From IMG/VR virus record IMGVR_UViG_3300031578_000045, positions 1 through 55,410 of that record: a stretch of DNA of 55,410 bases. The stretch is one strand, 5' to 3'. Below are positions 1,207-44,228 of the stretch, piece by piece. How positions within the stretch are numbered: position 1 is the stretch's first letter; every line of letters starts with the position of its first letter. The stretch comes from a virus. The position numbers and the translations under genes were made by a program. The notes under the pieces are model-generated. The model did not search any database, was not told where the DNA came from, and saw only the letters and a list, made by a program, of their open reading frames with translations.

Positions 1207-1333
1207 CGTTGATAATATGAAATCGGTGGGGATTTGAAACACCTACCAACCAAATAAAATTGAAGTTAAACCAAAGCAGAAAGGGTAAATTAAGCACTGC
1301 AACCCCACTGTTTTATATTTATTGTTGTAGTGC
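1203..1333 (+). repeat. attC-like palindromic spacer (left accessory cassette)
   Basis: 131 bp between two genes. The 5' arm has TTAACG then AATATGAAATCGGTGGGG (near 1213-1231). The 3' arm carries the complementary CCCCACTGTTTTATAT and ends GTTGTAGTGC (1324-1333). The arms pair imperfectly around a non-conserved centre. The layout matches the two sites at 37.85-38.29 kb, including the AATATGAAA and TTTTATATT blocks. Confidence 0.55.
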
Positions 1334-1344
1334 GTTTTTGAGCG

Positions 1345-1596
1345 ATGGATTACTTAAAATTAGTAGAAGATTTAAACCAAGAGATGTACGACAAGCACGG
1401 TGAAAACGAAGAGCAATGGTACTATATGTGTACAGGCTTCGTAGATGTGATAGGGTTTGGTGATATAATGCTTTGGAATAGTGAGGGGTGCGATAGGCGT
1501 TGGATAGAAAGTAAGAATGATTATGAACCGCTTAAACCTTATCTAAAGAAGAAGCTTAAAAAGTACGGGCAAAAGATAAGTGCGTTGGCAAGCTAA
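1345..1596 (+). CDS. Small unknown protein, cassette-bounded
   Basis: 83 residues, rich in Trp, Tyr and acidic residues, with a basic C-terminus. No family recognised. It is bounded by a perfect 13-bp inverted repeat: 1321-1333 upstream and 1598-1610 downstream. This is the pattern expected of an integron-type gene cassette, where the leading GTTRnnn end is complementary to the same cassette's trailing nnnYAAC end. Confidence 0.6.
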   Translation: MDYLKLVEDLNQEMYDKHGENEEQWYYMCTGFVDVIGFGDIMLWNSEGCDRRWIESKNDYEPLKPYLKKKLKKYGQKISALAS

Positions 1597-1597
1597 T

Positions 1598-1610
1598 GCA
1601 CTACAACAAT
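1598..1610 (+). repeat. Downstream 13-bp inverted end of the cassette
   Basis: GCACTACAACAAT is the exact reverse complement of 1321-1333. It lies 2 bp after the stop at 1596. The phage-type leader of the next gene follows directly. Confidence 0.8.
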
Positions 1611-31873: not shown

Positions 31874-32272
31874 ATGGAAAGATTAAAAGAATTGATTGGC
31901 AAAACACTTACCAAAGTAGAAAACAAAGACAATGACGAGATAATATTTACTTGCGAAGATGGAAAGCAATATAAAATGTATCACGGACAAGATTGTTGCG
32001 AAAGTGTATCTATTGAAGATATAGTTGGCGACTTACAAGATTTAGTTGGAAGCCCAATATTAAAAGCAGAAGAAGTTTCTAATTATGAACCAACTTCACA
32101 AGAGGATATTGAGCGAACTAAAGAAGCGGAAGATTGGGGCTCTTGTACTTGGACTTACTATAAATTCGCAACAATTAAAGGATATGTAGATATTAGGTGG
32201 TATGGCGAAAGTAATGGATACTACTGTGAATCTGTAGATTTTATATTGCTTAGTGTTGATTATGAGTACTAA
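31874..32272 (+). CDS. DUF7448-like phage protein
   Basis: 132 residues. [10 protein letters not shown], then [21 protein letters not shown], then [17 protein letters not shown] fits a small phage domain of unknown function (DUF7448, from memory). Beta-rich and acidic with a conserved Cys pair. The stop forms TACTAACG, the first of the cassette-type ends. Confidence 0.6.
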
Positions 32273-32283
32273 CGTAGTATTAA

Positions 32284-32303
32284 TGCTAACTGTGTTAGCA
32301 AAC
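32284..32303 (+). repeat. Cassette junction: TGCTAAC / GTTAGCA
   Basis: TGCTAAC (32284-32290) and GTTAGCA (32294-32300) form a perfect 7-bp inverted repeat with a 3-nt gap. GTTAGCAAAC (32294-32303) is also complementary to GTTTGCTAAC (32462-32471) past the next gene, so this is a junction between two cassette ends. Confidence 0.55.
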
Positions 32304-32314
32304 GTAATTTGTAT

Positions 32315-32455
32315 ATGAATGACAGACTTTATAAATATTTACAAGATGAATGGAAACGCAATAATTTACCTAAATATCAAAAATACTTTGAAGAATGGGT
32401 GAATAACTTAACTGAAAATCAAATATATTACTACAAAACATTATGGCTACGGTAG
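32315..32455 (+). CDS. Small unknown protein, cassette-bounded
   Basis: 46 residues, rich in Tyr, Lys and Trp, helical. It is bounded by a perfect 10-bp inverted repeat (32294-32303 and 32462-32471), the gene-cassette pattern. No family recognised. Confidence 0.55.
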   Translation: MNDRLYKYLQDEWKRNNLPKYQKYFEEWVNNLTENQIYYYKTLWLR

Positions 32456-32461
32456 TGTTAT

Positions 32462-32471
32462 GTTTGCTAAC
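32462..32471 (+). repeat. Downstream inverted end of the 32.3-kb cassette
   Basis: GTTTGCTAAC is the exact reverse complement of 32294-32303. It lies 6 bp after the stop and is followed by GTAAATAATATGGG, like the AATATGAAA block in the longer sites. Confidence 0.6.
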
Positions 32472-32533
32472 GTAAATAATATGGGCTTATTGCCAACAAA
32501 ATAAGTACAAAATTTAATTAAAAACACAAAGAT

Positions 32534-32755
32534 ATGTTTATAGAAAAACTTAATAAAATGCTCGGCAATTTGCTTATATTTAGTGTTACCAACAGTGCGG
32601 TAATTACTATATGGACTAATGATTTGGCCGAAGCGCAAAGGATGTGTGAACAAGTTTATTTGCCTGATGGATGGGAGGTTAAAGAGCCGATAGAAACAAA
32701 ATGGAACTGGAAAAGGTTTGAATGGCAATACCGCTTTAAGCTTGTGAAGAAGTAG
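32534..32755 (+). CDS. Small unknown protein
   Basis: 73 residues, soluble, with many Trp in the C-terminal third (basic EWQYRFKLVKK end). The gene is followed by TTGCTAACGGCTTATAT, a cassette-end-like sequence. Unknown. Confidence 0.5.
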   Translation: MFIEKLNKMLGNLLIFSVTNSAVITIWTNDLAEAQRMCEQVYLPDGWEVKEPIETKWNWKRFEWQYRFKLVKK

Positions 32756-32856
32756 CATTGTTGCTAACGGCTTATATATGTACTTTACAATAGTAATTAA
32801 AATTTAAACTGAGCAATAAAATTCAAGTGAGTTACAAACCTTAAAAATATTGTGCG

Positions 32857-33222
32857 ATGGAAAATATTGAATTATGGATTATAGGAATATTATTTTTTGC
32901 AACATTAATTAGTCTAAGAGCTTTAAAAGAAAGTAGACATTTTGCAAAATACTGGAAAGACCTTTATTTTATACAAAAGGACTTAAATGAAAAGATGGAA
33001 AAAGATAGCGAGGGCAACCATGTTGATTTGAAAAACAGCAAATTACCCATACAACGTGTTAGTAATTGCGCCTCTATCTGCTCTTTCAAAGAGGTAAAAG
33101 ACATTTGGAATGCAGCAGAAAAGCACGTACTACACGAAATGGGCGAAGTTTGCAAAGGTGACGCTAATTATGAAGAAGATACACCAGACTTAAACACATA
33201 CTACGAAAGGCATTATTACTAA
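32857..33222 (+). CDS. Membrane-anchored unknown protein
   Basis: 121 residues. One helix at 5-22, then a charged soluble domain (25-121). It starts 1 nt after TTGTGC (32850-32855), which complements the GCACAAC at 33253-33259 after the gene, so cassette-type ends may bound it. Confidence 0.5.
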   Translation: MENIELWIIGILFFATLISLRALKESRHFAKYWKDLYFIQKDLNEKMEKDSEGNHVDLKNSKLPIQRVSNCASICSFKEVKDIWNAAEKHVLHEMGEVCKGDANYEEDTPDLNTYYERHYY

Positions 33223-33238
33223 TGGACAGGTATAAAAA

Positions 33239-33259
33239 GGCGTTTTAATGAAGCACAAC
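33239..33259 (+). repeat. 21-bp repeat, cassette-end type (copy 1)
   Basis: Starts GGCGTTTTAATG and ends AAGCACAAC. Identical over 21 bp to 36467-36487 after another small gene. Ends with the conserved AAC. Confidence 0.6.
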
Positions 33260-33337
33260 GGTAAAAATATGGGTATGTGCTGCCTTCGAATAAGCACAAA
33301 GATTGATACGAGATATAAACTTAACAATTTACGAGCG

Positions 33338-33634
33338 ATGGAATTACAAATTAAAGCAGATTTAACACAAACTTTATGTGTAAGACAAATGCACGACCTT
33401 ATTGAAATAGATATAAGAGAAGGTAAAAAGTTTAATTGCTTATTCATAAATAAAGAACAAGCTAAACAGGTAATATCTAAATTGCAGGAGTGCGTTGGGG
33501 AAACTTCAAACGAGAACGCAGCATTACCTATATTTGATGTTAAGCGTGCGGCCTTTAATGAAGCTTATGATAAATTCGTAGAATGCGAGGATGACAACGC
33601 CTATACTAAATGGTTAAATAAAGTTTGTGGCTGA
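33338..33634 (+). CDS. Small unknown protein
   Basis: 98 residues from ATG 33338, preferred over an in-frame ATG 90 nt upstream because ATGG after an AGCG leader recurs in this region. Alpha-beta, soluble. It is followed by GCCTAACGGCTTATATGTG, a cassette-end-like motif. Confidence 0.5.
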   Translation: MELQIKADLTQTLCVRQMHDLIEIDIREGKKFNCLFINKEQAKQVISKLQECVGETSNENAALPIFDVKRAAFNEAYDKFVECEDDNAYTKWLNKVCG

Positions 33635-33683
33635 CGCCTAACGGCTTATATGTGTACTTTACAAATGTAATTTAACTTAAATA

Positions 33684-33714
33684 TTGGATAATTAATTAAA
33701 TTTACTTACCTTTC
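33684..33714 (+). promoter_or_regulatory. Promoter of the endolysin operon
   Basis: TTG (33684-33686), 20 nt, TACCTTTC (33707-33714) agrees with the Bacteroidetes pattern apart from the final G. The endolysin ATG follows 30 nt downstream. Confidence 0.6.
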
Positions 33715-33744
33715 CGATATGAAAACTATGAAAAACTTAAAGAT

Positions 33745-34164
33745 ATGTATTCATTAAGCCAAAGAAGTTTAAATATACTATCAACTTGCCACGAAGATTT
33801 GCAAACATTGGCAAATGAAGCGATTAAAAATAGCCCTTATGATTTTGGTATAACCCACGGTATAAGATCGCCTAAGTTGCAAAATAAACTATATCAACAA
33901 GGAAGGACTAAACCAGGTAAAATTGTTACCTATATTGACGGGTACAATAAAAAATCTAAACATAATTATGACCCCGCTTTGGCTATGGATATAGCTGTAT
34001 ATGTTTCGGGGGAAATTACTTGGAAACTGGCATTTTATGAAATAGTTGCAAATCATATAATGTCTGTTTCCGAAAGATTATTTGAAGAAAATAAAATTTC
34101 CAATAGGATAGTTTGGGGAGGTAATTGGAAAAAGTTTAAAGATTATCCACATTTCCAAATATAA
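33745..34164 (+). CDS. Endolysin, M15 (VanY-type) peptidase
   Basis: 139 residues. It should cut peptide cross-links of peptidoglycan for lysis. Zinc-ligand motifs of the M15 family are visible: SKHNYDPALAMD (His73, Asp82) and the C-terminal WGGNWKKFKDYPHFQI (His136). Length equals a bare catalytic domain. No signal peptide, so it needs a holin. Own promoter, followed by two membrane genes. Confidence 0.85.
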   Translation: MYSLSQRSLNILSTCHEDLQTLANEAIKNSPYDFGITHGIRSPKLQNKLYQQGRTKPGKIVTYIDGYNKKSKHNYDPALAMDIAVYVSGEITWKLAFYEIVANHIMSVSERLFEENKISNRIVWGGNWKKFKDYPHFQI

Positions 34165-34169
34165 AAATT

Positions 34170-34430
34170 ATGAACTGGCTTATATGGTTATTGTTAGGGT
34201 TGTTTTTAGGTGTTATAATAGGCTTTCTGATTAAAAAGCCTAAGGATACCTATAATTATATAGTAAAGCGCATACGCGCTAAAAAGGGCTCTAAAATAGG
34301 TATCTCCGACTTATCAGAGATACCAAGCGAAAGGGGTATAATAAAAAGCATGATAAAAAATCCTGAAAAAGACAGAAAAAAACTTATAGATAGAATAAGA
34401 GAAAGAAGATTTAACCTTAAAAAAAATTAA
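34170..34430 (+). CDS. Membrane-anchored basic protein (spanin-like)
   Basis: 86 residues. One N-terminal helix (3-22) and a strongly basic, helical cytoplasmic or periplasmic part. It lies between endolysin and holin-like genes, so a lysis accessory role is likely, but no family fits clearly. Confidence 0.5.
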   Translation: MNWLIWLLLGLFLGVIIGFLIKKPKDTYNYIVKRIRAKKGSKIGISDLSEIPSERGIIKSMIKNPEKDRKKLIDRIRERRFNLKKN

Positions 34431-34432
34431 TT

Positions 34433-34780
34433 ATGAAATTAAATGCATTTTGGAAAGGGCTTATAATGGGTTTAGTTGGTTTTATAGCCACTACATTATC
34501 CGATCTTGAAACTATGAACTTTGCTTACATATTGATTTCATCCATAGGTTTTGCCGTTGTTTATATTGGCAAAAATTATGCCCTGCCTTCAATATCTGCT
34601 ATTGGTATAGATTTTAGGGATATTATTTCCGGTCTTATACTTGCTGTTGGGATGGCTTTATCTAGTGCAGCTGCGCAAGTGCTTACTATTGGATTTGAAT
34701 GGAACACGTTATTGATAGCGGTATCAGGTGCTGTTGTAGGTTATATAACTAAAACAGTAAGCACTAATTCAAAAAAATAG
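34433..34780 (+). CDS. Putative holin
   Basis: 115 residues with about four hydrophobic helices (6-22, 28-46, 62-82, 88-108), short charged ends and a Lys-rich tail. It ends the operon of endolysin, membrane protein and this gene, which is closed by a terminator at 34807. Holins form the pores that release the endolysin. Confidence 0.55.
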   Translation: MKLNAFWKGLIMGLVGFIATTLSDLETMNFAYILISSIGFAVVYIGKNYALPSISAIGIDFRDIISGLILAVGMALSSAAAQVLTIGFEWNTLLIAVSGAVVGYITKTVSTNSKK

Positions 34781-34806
34781 TTTTCATTTTTATAGGTTGT
34801 TTGATA

Positions 34807-34836
34807 GCTTAGTTCCTTTTGGGGCTAGGCTTTTTT
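34807..34836 (+). terminator. Terminator of the lysis operon
   Basis: GCTTAGTTCC (34807-34816) pairs with GGGGCTAGGC (34821-34830), including three G-U pairs, with a TTTT loop and TTTTTT after it. Confidence 0.75.
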
Positions 34837-34919
34837 GATGATATATATCACCGATAAACAAGTAACTAATTAAATTAATCGGCGTATATATAAGAAAACA
34901 TTAACTAAAATATACAGAT

Positions 34920-35120
34920 ATGAGAGCATTAGACAAACAACTTAAAGAAAGGTACGCAAAGGCAAATAATAAGGCTGATGAAACCTTTGAACGCTTAGGC
35001 ATTACTGCTGAGTTAAACAACCACAGAAGGCTCCTTAATAATTATTCTATAGCTTGTAAGGTTCAGTTTTATACGTACGATTCATTTCGTAACGGTGATG
35101 GTGATATAACACTCTTTTAA
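34920..35120 (+). CDS. Small unknown protein
   Basis: 66 residues, basic, helical N-terminus and mixed C-terminus. It stands alone between two terminators, so it has its own transcription unit. Unknown. Confidence 0.5.
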   Translation: MRALDKQLKERYAKANNKADETFERLGITAELNNHRRLLNNYSIACKVQFYTYDSFRNGDGDITLF

Positions 35121-35140
35121 TCTATTAATAATCTCGTTCG

Positions 35141-35166
35141 GCCCCGGTTAACGCTGGGGCTTTTTT
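35141..35166 (+). terminator. Terminator
   Basis: GCCCC (35141-35145) pairs with GGGGC (35156-35160) around a 10-nt loop and is followed by TTTTTT. Confidence 0.8.
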
Positions 35167-35208
35167 ATTTAGAACAGTTATAAATAGCAAATATTTTGAT
35201 GAACAGTA

Positions 35209-35238
35209 TTGCATATTGAAACATTTTAACTATTTTAG
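35209..35238 (+). promoter_or_regulatory. Promoter
   Basis: TTG (35209-35211), 19 nt, TATTTTAG (35231-35238). The first half, GTATTGCATATTGAAACATTT, is shared with the promoter at 38798, which supports both. Confidence 0.6.
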
Positions 35239-35260
35239 ACGTTAATTATATTAAACTAAA

Positions 35261-35488
35261 ATGATAAGAAACATGAAGAATTTTAATAAAAGGCTTGTAT
35301 GTATGTTTAGTTTGCTAGACATATTATTATGCGTTGTTTGTCTAATTTCGGTGATATTTAATGTATATGTTGCTGTTTGGTTTTGCGAGTATGATGATTG
35401 GCTTTACACAACATTAAAATACTGGTCCGCTGTCGAGGTGTGTATATTTATTTGGATATGCTGGAAATGCAATAGGAATAGTGCATAA
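35261..35488 (+). CDS. Two-helix membrane protein
   Basis: 75 residues. Hydrophobic helices at about 13-43 and 55-68, with several Cys residues and a short Tyr/Asp/Trp loop. Directly after a promoter. The stop is in GCATAATGG, a cassette-like end. Confidence 0.5.
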   Translation: MIRNMKNFNKRLVCMFSLLDILLCVVCLISVIFNVYVAVWFCEYDDWLYTTLKYWSAVEVCIFIWICWKCNRNSA

Positions 35489-35556
35489 TGGTACCCAGTT
35501 AAAAACATAAACAATGAATAAGATAATTAGAATTAATAACCTTAAAATAATGTGTG

Positions 35557-35922
35557 ATGGAAAGTAATATGGATATAAAAGACAGATACGAAAAAGAAAC
35601 TGGAAATAATTACTACTGTAATAATTCACAAGAAGATTATGGTATTCATACAGATGAATATGTTGAGTGGGTAGAAAATAAGTTAAAAGCGTGTGAAGGC
35701 AACCCCTCTGATTTGAAAAACGCCAACTGTGCTATTGTTATGCTTACAGAATCAAATACATTTACATTTACAACAACGGATAATTGCTTGCACGAGAACT
35801 ACACTTTCAGAAATGTAACAGTTAATTTTTATTTATTTGAATTGACAATGCTTTTCAAAGTGTGCCATAACTGCCACAAATTAATTAAAGACCATAAGAA
35901 ATGGAAAATAAAAATTAATTAA
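35557..35922 (+). CDS. Unknown protein with CxxC motif
   Basis: 121 residues from ATG 35557. Acidic N-terminus, beta-rich middle with many Thr, and CHNCHKLI near residue 110 as a possible zinc site. The gene is followed by GCATAACGTAGG. Confidence 0.5.
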   Translation: MESNMDIKDRYEKETGNNYYCNNSQEDYGIHTDEYVEWVENKLKACEGNPSDLKNANCAIVMLTESNTFTFTTTDNCLHENYTFRNVTVNFYLFELTMLFKVCHNCHKLIKDHKKWKIKIN

Positions 35923-35965
35923 GCATAACGTAGGTAATATAACTAATTTAAAACATAATACGATT

Positions 35966-36142
35966 ATGAAAAACTTTTTTGTTAAGAAAAAAGCTTTCAC
36001 CGAAGTTTACTTAAAAAATCGCGGATGGAGAAAGCTAAATTCTCAAGGTGAATACGGAACGCATGAAGGATTATACGGTATTTATTACTTAGTTGAAGGT
36101 TTTGCCCATGTGCACGAAAAGTACTGTAGGCATTTTCGCTAA
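35966..36142 (+). CDS. Small basic protein, cassette-type
   Basis: 58 residues, with many aromatic and basic residues. The TAA stop lies inside CGCTAACGG, so the gene runs into the downstream site, as is common in integron cassettes. Unknown. Confidence 0.5.
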   Translation: MKNFFVKKKAFTEVYLKNRGWRKLNSQGEYGTHEGLYGIYYLVEGFAHVHEKYCRHFR

Positions 36143-36165
36143 CGGTTTGTATAAGATTAGTTGCG
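36137..36165 (+). repeat. Short attC-like element
   Basis: CGCTAAC (36137-36143) and GTTGCG (36160-36165) can pair with one unpaired T, around GGTTTGTATAAGATTA. An extrahelical base in one arm is typical of attC hairpins, but this element is only 29 bp. Confidence 0.4.
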
Positions 36166-36219
36166 ATGGAAGATTGGATGCAGAAAAGTTGAATTGAAAC
36201 ACAAATAAAATTTAAAATT

Positions 36220-36438
36220 ATGGCAAAGATTTATGGAACTATTGAAATTGACTTTGATACTGATAAACCTATAACACAGGAGCAGTATGATAAGTTTGAA
36301 CGTAGGTTAAACAAAATGGTTGAAGATTGGGAGATGATGGTTTATGATGCTGCAAATGATGCAGGGTTTGAAGCCGATAGCATACATCCCATTTTGTTAG
36401 ATAACTTAGATTGTGAATTTGACGAGGAAGACGAATAA
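36220..36438 (+). CDS. Small acidic protein
   Basis: 72 residues, strongly acidic C-terminus (CEFDEEDE). Alpha-beta pattern. Acidic phage proteins of this size sometimes mimic DNA to block host defence enzymes. That is speculation here. Confidence 0.5.
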   Translation: MAKIYGTIEIDFDTDKPITQEQYDKFERRLNKMVEDWEMMVYDAANDAGFEADSIHPILLDNLDCEFDEEDE

Positions 36439-36449
36439 TTTTATTGCTT

Positions 36450-36487
36450 GTTGTGCTTAACGAAGTGGCGTTTTAATGAAGCACAAC
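36450..36487 (+). repeat. Inverted-repeat spacer with 21-bp shared part (copy 2)
   Basis: GTTGTGCTT (36450-36458) pairs perfectly with AAGCACAAC (36479-36487). The 3' part, 36467-36487, is identical to 33239-33259. Next comes TACTATATATAAAAACAA, which also follows the AAC at 38488-38495. Confidence 0.6.
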
Positions 36488-36518
36488 TACTATATATAAA
36501 AACAATTACTTAAATACA

Positions 36519-36764
36519 ATGGATAAAGAAGTGCAAATAAAAAGAATAATAAGGGCCTTTGTAATTAACAACCACTATAAAGGAGTTGATTTACAAGAGG
36601 ACTGGATTAATGACGCAGCAGAAGAAATAGTAAAAATATTTGCTATACCTGTTGTTATGCAACGAAGTGAACTGTTGCTTTTTGCTGACTATTCAGAAAG
36701 CGATAAAACCTCACAAACAACTGATGAATGTGTAGATAACTACCTTGCTCAAAAAAAGCAATAG
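36519..36764 (+). CDS. Small acidic protein
   Basis: 81 residues, helical, acidic. The stop is followed by TGCATAACGG, a cassette-like end. Unknown. Confidence 0.5.
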   Translation: MDKEVQIKRIIRAFVINNHYKGVDLQEDWINDAAEEIVKIFAIPVVMQRSELLLFADYSESDKTSQTTDECVDNYLAQKKQ

Positions 36765-36876
36765 TGCATAACGGTTAATTATATGGGTAGTGCAACCCCC
36801 CAAACTGCACGAAAGTTGATTAAATGTATAACCGCTCCCGTTTTATTTTTGAGCGTGGGCATAAAACTAAATAGAT

Positions 36877-37098
36877 ATGTTACAATTAGTATTAAACACA
36901 CCGAAAGCCAGTAGAGATGGCAGCGCAGAATTGTTTATTGATTACCAAAGCGAATCAGTTGGATTTACTGTGGTAACAAAAGATGGCTTGCAATATGATT
37001 TTAGTTGTGAGGTTGAAGAATGGCAACAGTTAAAATCGTTTATTGAACAAGCTATTTCGCGCGATGGCAAAAATAAAACTCGCACAAACGTTGATTAA
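36877..37098 (+). CDS. Small unknown protein
   Basis: 73 residues, alternating hydrophobic pattern (beta sheet) then a helix with WQQLKSFIEQ. The gene is flanked on both sides by palindromic spacers. Confidence 0.5.
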   Translation: MLQLVLNTPKASRDGSAELFIDYQSESVGFTVVTKDGLQYDFSCEVEEWQQLKSFIEQAISRDGKNKTRTNVD

Positions 37099-37150
37099 AT
37101 GCACGTTGCATTACCTATATAATGTGTTGTGTTGTCGTTTTAATGCAATA

Positions 37151-37175
37151 CAACGTTGGTATAAGAAGCGTTGCG
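37151..37175 (+). repeat. Short palindromic spacer element
   Basis: CAACG (37151-37155) and CGTTG (37169-37173) frame TTGGTATAAGAAG. It is part of a 140-bp gene-free spacer (37099-37206) with further inverted pieces near 37104 and 37141. Confidence 0.4.
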
Positions 37176-37206
37176 ATTAAATAGTAAAAACTTAAAATAT
37201 ACACGA

Positions 37207-37569
37207 ATGAAAAATAAAGAGATTAAACAACCGCAAACCACCGAGGCAAGCAATGATTTTTATACGTTGTTATGCCCCGTTGATTTATTCCGTTTTTTCC
37301 TACGCAAAAACTACGAAGGGATAGAGATTAATAACGAGGAGTGCGATGGGCTTGGAGAAGAATTTTATAAATACCTACGAGCTTTAAACTTGACTAATGA
37401 GCAAAGAAAAAACATATTACCTAAGAATACATTTGATGTAATATTGAACGCAGACCACCCATTGAGAACAAATGGATTCCCAGCCGCTTATGTTTTGCAC
37501 TTTACACAATTTGTAGAACAGCAAAAAGAAAAAGCGTTGGCTGATGGTTACGAGCCTAATGGGGCATAA
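37207..37569 (+). CDS. Unknown soluble protein
   Basis: 120 residues from ATG 37207 (a TTG at 37171 is possible). Contains LLCPVDLFRFFLR and helical segments. The stop is in GGGGCATAACG, a cassette-type end. No family recognised. Confidence 0.5.
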   Translation: MKNKEIKQPQTTEASNDFYTLLCPVDLFRFFLRKNYEGIEINNEECDGLGEEFYKYLRALNLTNEQRKNILPKNTFDVILNADHPLRTNGFPAAYVLHFTQFVEQQKEKALADGYEPNGA

Positions 37570-37627
37570 CGTACAAGGCTATGCGTAGTGCCTTCTTAAA
37601 ATTACGCACAAACTTAAATTAAAAGAC

Positions 37628-37858
37628 ATGAGCAAGAAATACGAACAAACATCAGCAGAAGTGGATAAGGCATTACGTATAGGTAGTGTTAGCACCCGTT
37701 TATTAACTCGAATTGCAACAGACCTTGAAAAAGAAATGAAGCGTTCGGATAATGATATGGTAATAGCAGACCTTGAAATGCAGATTGATGGATTAAAAAC
37801 ACTTAAAAAAGAACTTGACGACTTTAGAACGATAAAGACTATTCTAAATGGGTGCTAA
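37628..37858 (+). CDS. Small helical coiled-coil protein
   Basis: 76 residues, charged and helical. The stop TAA is inside GTGCTAACGG, the first base pairs of a 119-bp attC-like site. Confidence 0.55.
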   Translation: MSKKYEQTSAEVDKALRIGSVSTRLLTRIATDLEKEMKRSDNDMVIADLEMQIDGLKTLKKELDDFRTIKTILNGC

Positions 37859-37971
37859 CGGTCTGCAATATGAAACGGCTAAAACTACACCCCGAAAATG
37901 AAAAGATATAACAATTAAATACAAATATTAATTAGATGCACGACAAGCTGTTTTATATTGTTTGTTAGGCA
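37853..37971 (+). repeat. attC-like site 1 (119 bp)
   Basis: Starts TGCTAACGG and ends GTTAGGCA (37964-37971). The arms pair imperfectly: GCAATATGAAACGGCT at the left against AGCTGTTTTATATTG at the right. About 80 bp at its right end match site 2 with only a few changes. The centre is not conserved. The order of boxes is that of integron attC. Confidence 0.65.
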
Positions 37972-37989
37972 TCTGTAAAAATTACGGAC

Positions 37990-38163
37990 ATGAACACAAT
38001 AGAAAAAATTGAAAACGGACACTTTAATTTCAGCGAATTTAATGAAGGACAAATAAACTTCATCAAAGGACTTGTAAAATTCGCATACAACGATGGTTAT
38101 GAAGATGGTAAAGCTGAAATTAAAGATAAGATATGGAACGCAATAGAAATAGAAACCGAGTAA
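37990..38163 (+). CDS. Small acidic protein, cassette gene
   Basis: 57 residues, acidic, helical. It is bounded by GTTAGGCA (37964-37971) and TGCCTAAC (38173-38180), exact reverse complements, and flanked by the two full attC-like sites. Unknown. Confidence 0.6.
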   Translation: MNTIEKIENGHFNFSEFNEGQINFIKGLVKFAYNDGYEDGKAEIKDKIWNAIEIETE

Positions 38164-38172
38164 TTTTTATTG

Positions 38173-38292
38173 TGCCTAACGGTCGGCAATATGAAACGGC
38201 TAAACGGAACTTTGAAAAATGAGATACAGTAACAAATAAATACAAATATTAATTAGATGCAGGACAAGCTGTTTTATATTGCTTGTTAGGCA
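38173..38292 (+). repeat. attC-like site 2 (120 bp)
   Basis: Starts TGCCTAAC (38173-38180) and ends GTTAGGCA (38285-38292), perfect complements that also meet the core-site rule RYYYAAC / GTTRRRY. Inner arms: GGCAATATGAAACGGCT at the left and AGCTGTTTTATATTGC at the right. Confidence 0.7.
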
Positions 38293-38310
38293 TCTGTAAA
38301 AATTACGGAT

Positions 38311-38478
38311 ATGAGATACATACTTTTTGGAATAGGCTTATTAACATGGATTGCATTTGCATACGACATTGAAAATGATAGAGACTTTATGACTTGGATA
38401 TGGTTATTAACAAGTCTATTCTTTTTCGTAAATTCTTATGTGAGATATAAACACGATATGAAACAGAAAGGCAAGTAA
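38311..38478 (+). CDS. Small membrane protein, cassette gene
   Basis: 55 residues, two hydrophobic helices (3-17 and 28-44). Bounded by GTTAGGCA (38285-38292) and TGCCTAAC (38488-38495). Second complete cassette of the pair. Unknown. Confidence 0.6.
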   Translation: MRYILFGIGLLTWIAFAYDIENDRDFMTWIWLLTSLFFFVNSYVRYKHDMKQKGK

Positions 38479-38487
38479 TTTTTATTG

Positions 38488-38495
38488 TGCCTAAC
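38488..38495 (+). repeat. Terminal cassette end (half-site)
   Basis: TGCCTAAC. Unlike sites 1 and 2 it is not followed by a second arm but by TACTATATATAAAAACAA, as after the AAC at 36487. This looks like the boundary between cassettes and phage backbone. Confidence 0.55.
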
Positions 38496-38531
38496 TACTA
38501 TATATAAAAACAACCACTTAAATAACTGATT

Positions 38532-38762
38532 ATGAAAATAGAAAACTTTAATATAGAGAAGTTCAGACAAGACTTTTTTTTATATTTGATTAGAAAATAC
38601 AATAGACTAAATTGTTTATCGCAGTTTTGTAAAGACTATGATATGGATTCTTCAACATTGTGGAGAGCTTTGAACGGTGACAGTAAGAATGTCACCGCAA
38701 CTCATAAGCAGATATGTTATATGATGGGTAAAAACGTTAAATATTATTTAGAACCATTATAA
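38532..38762 (+). CDS. Helix-turn-helix-like protein
   Basis: 76 residues. FCKDYDMDSSTLWRALNGDSK near residues 32-52 resembles an HTH of the Cro/XRE kind, followed by a hydrophobic end. It lies between the cassettes and a promoter, so it is possibly a small repressor. Confidence 0.5.
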   Translation: MKIENFNIEKFRQDFFLYLIRKYNRLNCLSQFCKDYDMDSSTLWRALNGDSKNVTATHKQICYMMGKNVKYYLEPL

Positions 38763-40139: not shown

Positions 40140-40853
40140 ATGAAACAATACACAAAATTTAGAGATGAGATAATTAAGTTATGCAAAACCAATAATGCAT
40201 GCAAAGGAGAGTTTAAACGGCTTATAGAAACAAAAAGCGAAAAAGAATTTTGCAATGTTTTAAAAGATAATTTTACTTGGTGTTCAATAAATATTTTATC
40301 GGCAGAATTATTTGATAAACATACTGAGATTTTAAACGAGAATAACTTATATTGTAACGTAAATACAAGCAATGGTTATTTATTAGTCATAAACTCTTCA
40401 GTAAAAGCTTGGGGAAACTCTTCAGTAGTAGCTTGGGTAAACTCTTCAGTAGTAGCTTTTGAAAACTCTTCAGTAGTAGCTTTTGGAAACTCTTCTGTAG
40501 TAGCTAAGGAAAACTCTTCAGTAGAAGCTTGGGAAAACTCTTCAGTAGAAGCTTGGGGAAACTCTTCAGTAGTAGCTAAGGAAAACTCTTCAGTAGTAGC
40601 TTTTGGAAACTCTTCAGTAGAAGCTCGGGGAAACTCTTCAGTAGAAGCTCAGGATAACTCTTCAGTAAAAGCTTGGGTAAACTCTTCAGTAGTAGCTTTT
40701 GAAAACTCTTCAGTAGTAGCTTTTGAAAACTCTTACATATCATCGTATCAAACTATTAAATGTAAGCTTAATGATAATTCAATTTATAGAATTAGAAAAG
40801 AAAATACTATTTATTATTCATCCGAAAATCTTAAATTTAAGAAAATAGACTAA
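40140..40853 (+). CDS. Octapeptide-repeat protein (NSSVxAxx)
   Basis: 237 residues. A helical N-terminal domain with several Cys (1-80), 14 tandem 8-residue units NSSV[VEK]A[WFKRQ]x (about 85-196) and a short C-terminal cap of about 40 residues. The regular Val and Ala spacing is typical of a beta-solenoid, with variable surface positions. A second gene with an 8-residue period spans the window ends. Function unknown, perhaps binding a repetitive partner. Confidence 0.75.
   Translation: MKQYTKFRDEIIKLCKTNNACKGEFKRLIETKSEKEFCNVLKDNFTWCSINILSAELFDKHTEILNENNLYCNVNTSNGYLLVINSSVKAWGNSSVVAWVNSSVVAFENSSVVAFGNSSVVAKENSSVEAWENSSVEAWGNSSVVAKENSSVVAFGNSSVEARGNSSVEAQDNSSVKAWVNSSVVAFENSSVVAFENSYISSYQTIKCKLNDNSIYRIRKENTIYYSSENLKFKKID
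40392..40727 (+). repeat. 24-bp tandem repeat, 14 units
   Basis: Units start AACTCTTCAGTA and vary mainly in the last 12 bases. Near-identical codon use between units suggests recent expansion or gene conversion. Confidence 0.9.
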
Positions 40854-43875: not shown

Positions 43876-43898
43876 CCATGGTAATTATAACGGTTAAT

Positions 43899-43920
43899 GT
43901 ATGGCAATGTTGCGCCATAC
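43899..43920 (+). repeat. Palindromic spacer near lipoprotein gene
   Basis: GTATGGC (43899-43905) pairs with GCCATAC (43914-43920). It is preceded by TAACGG (43889 region), like the spacers at 36-38 kb, and may mark a further inserted cassette. Confidence 0.4.
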
Positions 43921-43964
43921 TTAGAATTACGAAATTTAATATTAACACATAAATTAGATAAAAG

Positions 43965-44228
43965 ATGAAAACTTTAAAATTATTACAGCGCAATTTGCTA
44001 TACATATTGTTAACGTGCGTTTTGTCCGTTGGATGTGAAAGCAAAACAAGTACACCTGATGGAAATGACGGTGAAAAAGTTACAACTGGCTCTATAACTT
44101 ATTGTAGTGTAAGTGCGGTTGACTATTATAGTGGAGGAATGCACTACAAAGTATTTAACTCTGCCGCAGGTGATGTATTTGTAGTTAATATAACTAAAGA
44201 TAGTTTGATCGTGGCAAATGCACGTTAA
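43965..44228 (+). CDS. Lipoprotein, possible inserted cassette gene
   Basis: 87 residues. The signal ends in the lipobox LSVGC-E (Cys24), with a Ser/Thr-rich linker, then a beta domain. The stop is in CGTTAAC. It sits alone among replication and recombination genes, flanked by cassette-like spacers, and so looks acquired. Confidence 0.55.
   Translation: MKTLKLLQRNLLYILLTCVLSVGCESKTSTPDGNDGEKVTTGSITYCSVSAVDYYSGGMHYKVFNSAAGDVFVVNITKDSLIVANAR

Follow-up and report, generated by a model that had tools for sequence, protein, structure and literature searches.

How does a phage come to carry a row of small, unrelated genes set apart by palindromic spacers, and what moves these genes? The question is raised by the 31.9-38.5 kb region of IMG/VR record IMGVR_UViG_3300031578_000045, which we analysed over its entire length of 55,410 bp (the window). 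A reading made from the letters alone (the sequence-only reading) had taken the region for an integron-type array of captured gene cassettes without an integrase, that is, a cluster of attC sites lacking integron-integrases (CALIN). Integrons are bacterial (and archaeal) platforms run by the integrase IntI, in which the genes face their attC. We find that a tailed phage very probably carries an array of integron-type cassettes here; these are reversed, and a recombinase of phage type would move them. Comparison of related loci demonstrates the unit structure, unit boundaries at YAA^C, the exchange of single units, the reversed genes and, in relatives, an attI-like site beside a small phage recombinase. 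It is also likely that these elements represent a phage-specific integron class. Such a class would combine a tyrosine recombinase other than IntI with an attI of its own and a private pool of inverted cassettes, which pass from phage to phage (contigs up to 362 kb) and serve as a set of exchangeable genes; the phage of the window would be a carrier that lost or never had the recombinase.

Two adjacent spacers of the window, 37855-37974 and 38173-38297, share the anatomy R''-5 nt-L''...L'-2 nt-R'. Over 133 bp the latter matches, at 95% identity, a spacer that separates other genes in an unrelated phage contig (L013), and it is 91% identical to a spacer in L014, a contig of a Bacteroidales metagenome-assembled genome (MAG). 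A gap-pattern search yielded 45 IMG/VR loci sharing the stem ATATGAAACGG...CTGTTTTATAT. The search pattern itself accounts in part for the invariant ATATGAAACGG core of alignment A1, which was left out of the evidence. Outside this fixed core the stem varies with compensation, as 6 of 17 pairs are changed on both sides (67 cells, compared with 19 in shuffles), and 98% of stem cells are paired compared with 38-53% when the alignment is slid. R1, a covariance model of the hairpin trained without any sequence of the window or of L013, gave seven matches in the window at an expectation value (E) below 1e-4 (Table 1). Five lie inside 31.9-38.5 kb, and two, among them the best of the window, lie outside the region marked by the sequence-only reading. 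With E up to 0.01, R1 gave 181 matches over L014 and 45 viral contigs (46 loci), where the lowest-scoring matches include opposite-strand shadows of the same sites, and 94 matches in 20 Bacteroidota loci. The controls were nearly silent: no match in 12 unrelated viral loci (113 kb), and one marginal match in 347 kb around 20 IntI genes. Hairpins of this family are present in about 100 contigs of IMG/VR and, by R1, in 68 of the 395 Bacteroidota genomes sampled; the exact hairpin pattern had no match in the 395 genomes, a result that is uninformative at 1.3 Gb. An Rfam scan of the window gave no matches, and a Thermodesulfobacteriota match (L015) was rejected by eye as a chance half-match. Sites were read as YAACG-5-hairpin-2-GTTR, with box positions located by rule rather than curated; the boxes, nnnYAAC and GTTRnnn, are attC boxes looser than the strict consensus RYYYAAC and GTTRRRY.

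The sequence-only reading leaned on the complementary ends of single genes. Those of the genes at 37990, 38311 and 32315 are present in the sequence (Table 1); for the gene at 32857 the pair TTGTGC/GCACAA exists and is just 6 nt long, and its spacer scores at noise level as a hairpin (16 bits, E 0.3). Complementary ends alone do not exceed chance in the window, where the array region has 6 exact GTT+6 pairs and the mirror polarity 4. We therefore turn to the units between neighbouring sites in related loci. In each, the five nucleotides following GTT were compared with the complement of the five that precede the final AAC of the unit. Mean matches within a unit are 3.33 in phages, 3.71 in recombinase-bearing phages and 3.82 in chromosomes, with perfect 5/5 pairs in 27/58, 43/78 and 20/34 units, respectively. 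Because this exceeds both shuffled units (about 2.0) and the two boxes of one site (1.9-2.3), the boxes match within the unit and not within the site, as in integrons.

Whole units are also shared between otherwise unrelated contigs. Unrelated sequence lies upstream of 28 of 32 shared units, and contig pairs such as L020/L023, L025/L031, L029/L034, L049/L058, L174/L238 (at 100% identity), L217/L238 and L033/L217 have a single unit in common but not its surroundings. The homology starts and stops at YAAC on both sides, so that single units are gained and lost with breakpoints at the conserved crossover point. The unit that L033 and L217 share leads into a further hairpin in one of these phages, whereas in the second it leads into the attI-like site. 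L016 and L024, from one metagenome, have exactly 127 bp in common and then diverge inside a site, which looks like a branch within a population. Thus R1 matches in the window, the pair rule over 170 units of related loci and whole-unit sharing together bear out the proposal of integron-type cassettes with attC-type folded sites. The sequence-only reading had named an absence of covariance matches and spacers fixed in related phages as grounds for giving up that proposal; matches are present, and phages exchange single units.

The hairpin of an integron cassette goes with the gene on its upstream side. In all phages examined, the hairpin lies 5' of its own gene and travels with this downstream gene, and the coding strand is the strand that can be folded. 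A hairpin 3' of its own gene, with the gene sense to the attC top strand, is found in the chromosomal arrays and not in the phages. By simple calls of open reading frames (ORFs), on which all our orientation counts rest, both neighbour genes are sense at 182 viral sites (79 + 103) and both antisense at none, whereas chromosomal arrays have 53 antisense/antisense and 5 sense/sense sites, these five being found in L149 and in small contigs from the same MAG as L014. A chromosomal control (L141) has a duplicated cassette, 100% identical, with the same breakpoints and an antisense gene. The site strand folds more stably in 66/70 and 67/70 phage sites and in 60/70 chromosomal sites; at classical attC sites next to IntI, the bottom strand is the more stable in 11/13. 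Since the same strand is favoured in phage and chromosomal sites, the DNA chemistry looks alike and only the gene appears turned round in phage cassettes, the phage coding strand corresponding to the attC bottom strand. In integrons the folded bottom strand fixes cassette orientation relative to the promoter Pc (PMC8876359). All sites of the window are on the + strand, as are its genes. The hairpin of cassette 38181..38495 folds on the sense and not on the antisense strand, and in two cassettes (37.1-37.9 kb) the ORF starts inside the hairpin.

A question remains, which enzyme would move the units? Neither IntI, whose absence the sequence-only reading had noted, nor any other tyrosine recombinase was found in the window. 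Tyrosine recombinases are present in 7 of 46 array-bearing records, and four of them belong to a single family with lengths of 266-268 aa. Scanning for relatives gave 118 places in viral sequences, and around the best 80, which were analysed, all 158 of 158 sites are on the recombinase strand, nearly all upstream of the gene. These phage recombinases (265-270 aa) sit at the array end, keep invariant catalytic residues and lack the IntI-specific insertion; in the tree they form one clade (100/99) apart from IntI (100/99). They match NF040815 and TIGR02249 only below cut-off, NF040815 being the best (179 of 220 bits). Relatives that lie on the opposite strand at 3-5 kb from an array (G199, G227, G313, G089, G193, G104) were set aside as probably unrelated integrases, and a structure prediction without alignment (predicted local distance difference test score, pLDDT, of 38) was not used. 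Between the last cassette and the recombinase, 66 of 76 phage loci have a conserved site, YAAC-TATTATATAT (YAAC-TA(T/C)(T/C)ATATAT...). Right of YAAC it is mostly 76-98% conserved over the first ten positions and the left-hand cassette varies by phage, which marks it as an attI-like site. The window has two such sites (36484 and 38492), with a chance expectation of 0.12 per window, and the array drawn by the sequence-only reading ends exactly on the second. In related phages the site adjoins a recombinase; the two copies of the window have none there.

In chromosomes, relatives of the phage recombinase are enriched in R1-positive genomes (36/64 vs 71/296, approximate figures with few candidates scored per genome). 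Past the attI end of the array, at a distance of 0.5-7.5 kb, G039, G047, G055, G160, G183 and, in a looser form, G101 have a small recombinase in classical divergent geometry, and some of these loci have their own conserved attI-like stretch. G039:C33, G047:C44, G055:C4, G160:C35 and G183:C13 are integron-like arrays in Bacteroidota chromosomes with a recombinase other than IntI beside them; with their genes in the classical orientation, they may be a chromosomal counterpart.

From these comparisons the mobile unit is C-G-spacer(5)-hairpin-spacer(2)-GTTRnnnn-leader-gene-nnnnYAA. In the circularised unit nnnnYAAC would pair with GTTRnnnn, completing attC. A recombinase, either the phage's own, a co-resident phage's or the host's, would then fold the attC sense strand, cut at YAA^C and insert or excise units at attI. 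On this view the phage of the window is a carrier that is not autonomous: its record has an array and attI-like sites but no recombinase. Because the unit runs with transcription behind its hairpin and own leader, a captured gene would join the phage operon in sense and need no Pc promoter. Most of 80 long cassette proteins match no Pfam family; notable exceptions are seven matches to families of DNA methyltransferases, an RNA ligase and an exoribonuclease. With a cargo mostly of small unknown genes and DNA methyltransferases, the phage would likely gain accessory and anti-defence genes in a set that can be changed quickly.

With the IntI, attI and attC system of integrons the phage arrays share an attC-type hairpin with unit-specific R box pairing, units of a single gene, a folded strand cut on its long-spacer side, and an attI-like site beside a tyrosine recombinase from which the array extends in the same polarity. 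Unlike in integrons, the phage gene is reversed in its cassette, the recombinase and cassettes are co-directional, and the recombinase, of 265-270 aa, is without the insertion and outside the IntI clade. The phage enzyme resembles the simple XerA/XerC-like recombinases (NF040815), its best family match, in its invariant catalytic residues, yet it falls below every family cut-off and is linked to cassette arrays rather than dif sites. Arrays of attC without IntI were described in virulent phages, e.g., Polaribacter phage P12002L, and are usable by IntI1 (Qi et al. 2023, PMC9892861). They share the lack of IntI and the methyltransferase cargo with the arrays studied here; inverted cassettes, a phage recombinase and attI are not described there, and P12002L had no match to the hairpin family.

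Could these arrays be ordinary CALINs, chromosomal integron cassettes that phages acquired and that a host IntI moves? The attC-type anatomy, the use of phage attC sites by IntI1 (PMC9892861) and the occurrence of IntI above cut-off in 105 of 395 sampled Bacteroidota genomes would fit. However, genes are reversed relative to attC at the 182 viral sites, genomes with the hairpin family are not enriched in IntI (15/68 compared with 105/395 overall, a hand count), arrays beside IntI hold other attC families, and it is the phage recombinase with its attI that sits at the arrays. This explanation is already disfavoured, and we regard it as quite improbable. Of the CALIN proposed by the sequence-only reading, the integron-type cassettes and the missing integrase hold, whereas cassettes reversed relative to attC are unlike a plain captured CALIN; instead of stray chromosomal cassettes, the comparisons point to a phage cassette pool with a phage-encoded non-IntI recombinase family and its own attI-like site. 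Alternatively, the hairpins may act in RNA, as terminators, leaders or processing sites that were copied from operon to operon, their mobility being incidental. Folding of the sense strand, one hairpin ahead of each gene and G.T pairs that favour the transcript strand agree with such a role, yet chromosomal members fold antisense to their genes, so a role in the transcript is not the common function, and whole genes travel with the hairpin; we find this very improbable. A hairpin transposon of the IS200/IS605 type, which would have a Y1 HUH transposase and a fixed target tetranucleotide, is unlikely given the unit-specific paired ends and the tyrosine recombinase.

Several observations weigh against a phage integron with its own recombinase. 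The window has no recombinase, in a record that is possibly incomplete, and several of its spacers (32.7-36.4 kb) have no R1 score. The insertion that the phage recombinases lack is described as essential for integron function (PMC8138268). In addition, the 5-nt spacer after AACG sometimes goes with the upstream gene and not with the unit (L025/L031, L034/L038, L016/L024), a segregation that homologous exchange inside the conserved stem could also produce. This last point, together with the RecT and exonuclease encoded by the window phage, favours hairpin spacers as short homology islands at which RecT-type recombination shuffles genes with no site-specific enzyme. Such shuffling leaves unexplained the unit-specific complementary ends, the sharp YAAC breakpoints, including the fully identical unit of L174 and L238, the conserved attI-like site and the linkage of the recombinase, and we hold it to be unlikely. 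A phage-type recombinase acting on reversed cassettes would use the same DNA logic as integrons with a different enzyme and the cargo turned round, and would account for the one-by-one, precisely bounded exchange of small accessory genes in some phages. It would also separate attC chemistry from IntI and make the need for the IntI insertion in folded-strand recombination testable. IntegronFinder 2.0 reported few complete Bacteroidetes integrons (PMC9024848), and standard tools based on IntI would label arrays such as these orphan CALINs. In a literature search, with thin coverage of subscription journals and preprints, we found no description of inverted cassettes or of a phage-encoded non-IntI cassette recombinase.

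Table 1. Cassettes, hairpins and attI-like sites of the window
Feature	Coordinates	Strand	Hairpin, boxes and ORF	R1 match (E)	Remarks
Cassette outside the region of the sequence-only reading	1208..1607	+	Hairpin 1208-1323; R' GTTGTAGTG (1324); 83-aa ORF 1345-1596; complementary CACTACAAC ending 1607	1196-1336 (7.8e-16)	Exact inverted pair; site 81% identical to L055 site
Cassette-like unit	32294..32471	+	GTTAGCAAAC (32294); small ORF from 32315; GTTTGCTAAC ending 32471		Exact inverted pair; own hairpin degenerate (TGCTAAC-TGT-GTTAGCA)
attC-type hairpin after unit 32294..32471	32460..32597	+		32460 (6.3e-5)	76% identity to L022 site region
Cassette	35733..35929	+	R' GTTATGCTT (35737); AAGCATAAC (ends 35929); ORF 35554-35922 extends into cassette		90% identity to L247:7743-7939, adjoining attI-like site and recombinase of the L247 phage
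Geneless mini-unit	36450..36487	+	GTTGTGCTT..CGTTTTAATG..AAGCACAAC		Same form in L174, L183, L187, L193
attI-like site 1	36484..36518	+	CAACTACTATATATAA...
Cassette	37155..37570	+	Hairpin 37155-37268; R' GTTATGCCC (37269); end GGGCATAAC (37570)	37143 (2.5e-10)	Exact pair
Cassette	37571..37859	+	Hairpin 37571-37687; R' GTTAGCACC (37688); end GGTGCTAAC (37859)	37559 (8.6e-5)	Exact pair; start codon 37628 within hairpin loop
Cassette	37860..38180	+	Hairpin; R' GTTAGGCA (37964); ORF 37990-38163; end TGCCTAAC (38173-38180)	37848 (1.2e-13)	Hairpin common to L013, L014, L016
Cassette	38181..38495	+	Hairpin; R' GTTAGGCA (38285); ORF 38311-38478; end TGCCTAAC (38488-38495)	38169 (2.7e-15)
attI-like site 2, array end	38492..38531	+	TAACTACTATATATAA...
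76-aa ORF at recombinase position of related phages	38532..38762	+			No family match
Weak attC-type hairpin near ORF 43965-44228	43880..44021	+		43880 (2.6e-5)

The window encodes the caudovirus large terminase, portal, tape measure, endolysin, RecT and helicases, and its phage is a tailed phage, probably of Bacteroidota, as we infer for the host. BLAST against GenBank phages and plasmids, near and distant, gave no matches. The endolysin gene that the sequence-only reading placed in the array region is there, at 33745; its holin could not be confirmed, the ORF at 34433-34777 having no PHROG match. The viral status of most contigs was taken from IMG/VR; a PF03237 terminase, the only terminase family searched, is present in at least 12 of 45 tested records, which are thus phages, up to 362 kb.

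Geneless mini-units of the form GTTnnnnn-(T)CGTTTTAATG-nnnnnAAC, with a conserved 10-nt middle, lie at 36450-36487 and 37126-37154 of the window and, in L174, L183, L187 and L193, directly before attI, as if they were empty cassettes. A phage-type array with attI-like site and recombinase in a Bacteroidota genome (L275, G104:C1:239000-258900) is possibly a prophage and in that case a pointer to the host. Small contigs C11, C184, C253 and C274, binned in the Bacteroidales MAG G001, have arrays in phage orientation and a phage-type recombinase, and are probably phage contamination of the bin. Proteins similar to DUF7448 recur in or near arrays of phage and MAG contigs (window 31874-32272, L014 3581-3979, L031 1321-1740). 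Elsewhere in the window, at least seven tandem 24-nt repeats at 40391-40600 lie in an ORF coding for NSSV(V/E)A(F/W/K) repeats, possibly a beta-helix protein, and the left record end (1-145) has tandem repeats with a period of about 26 nt (GACGCAGGGCATTCCACAATC...), which may be the terminal part of a repeat-rich tail gene truncated by the record boundary.

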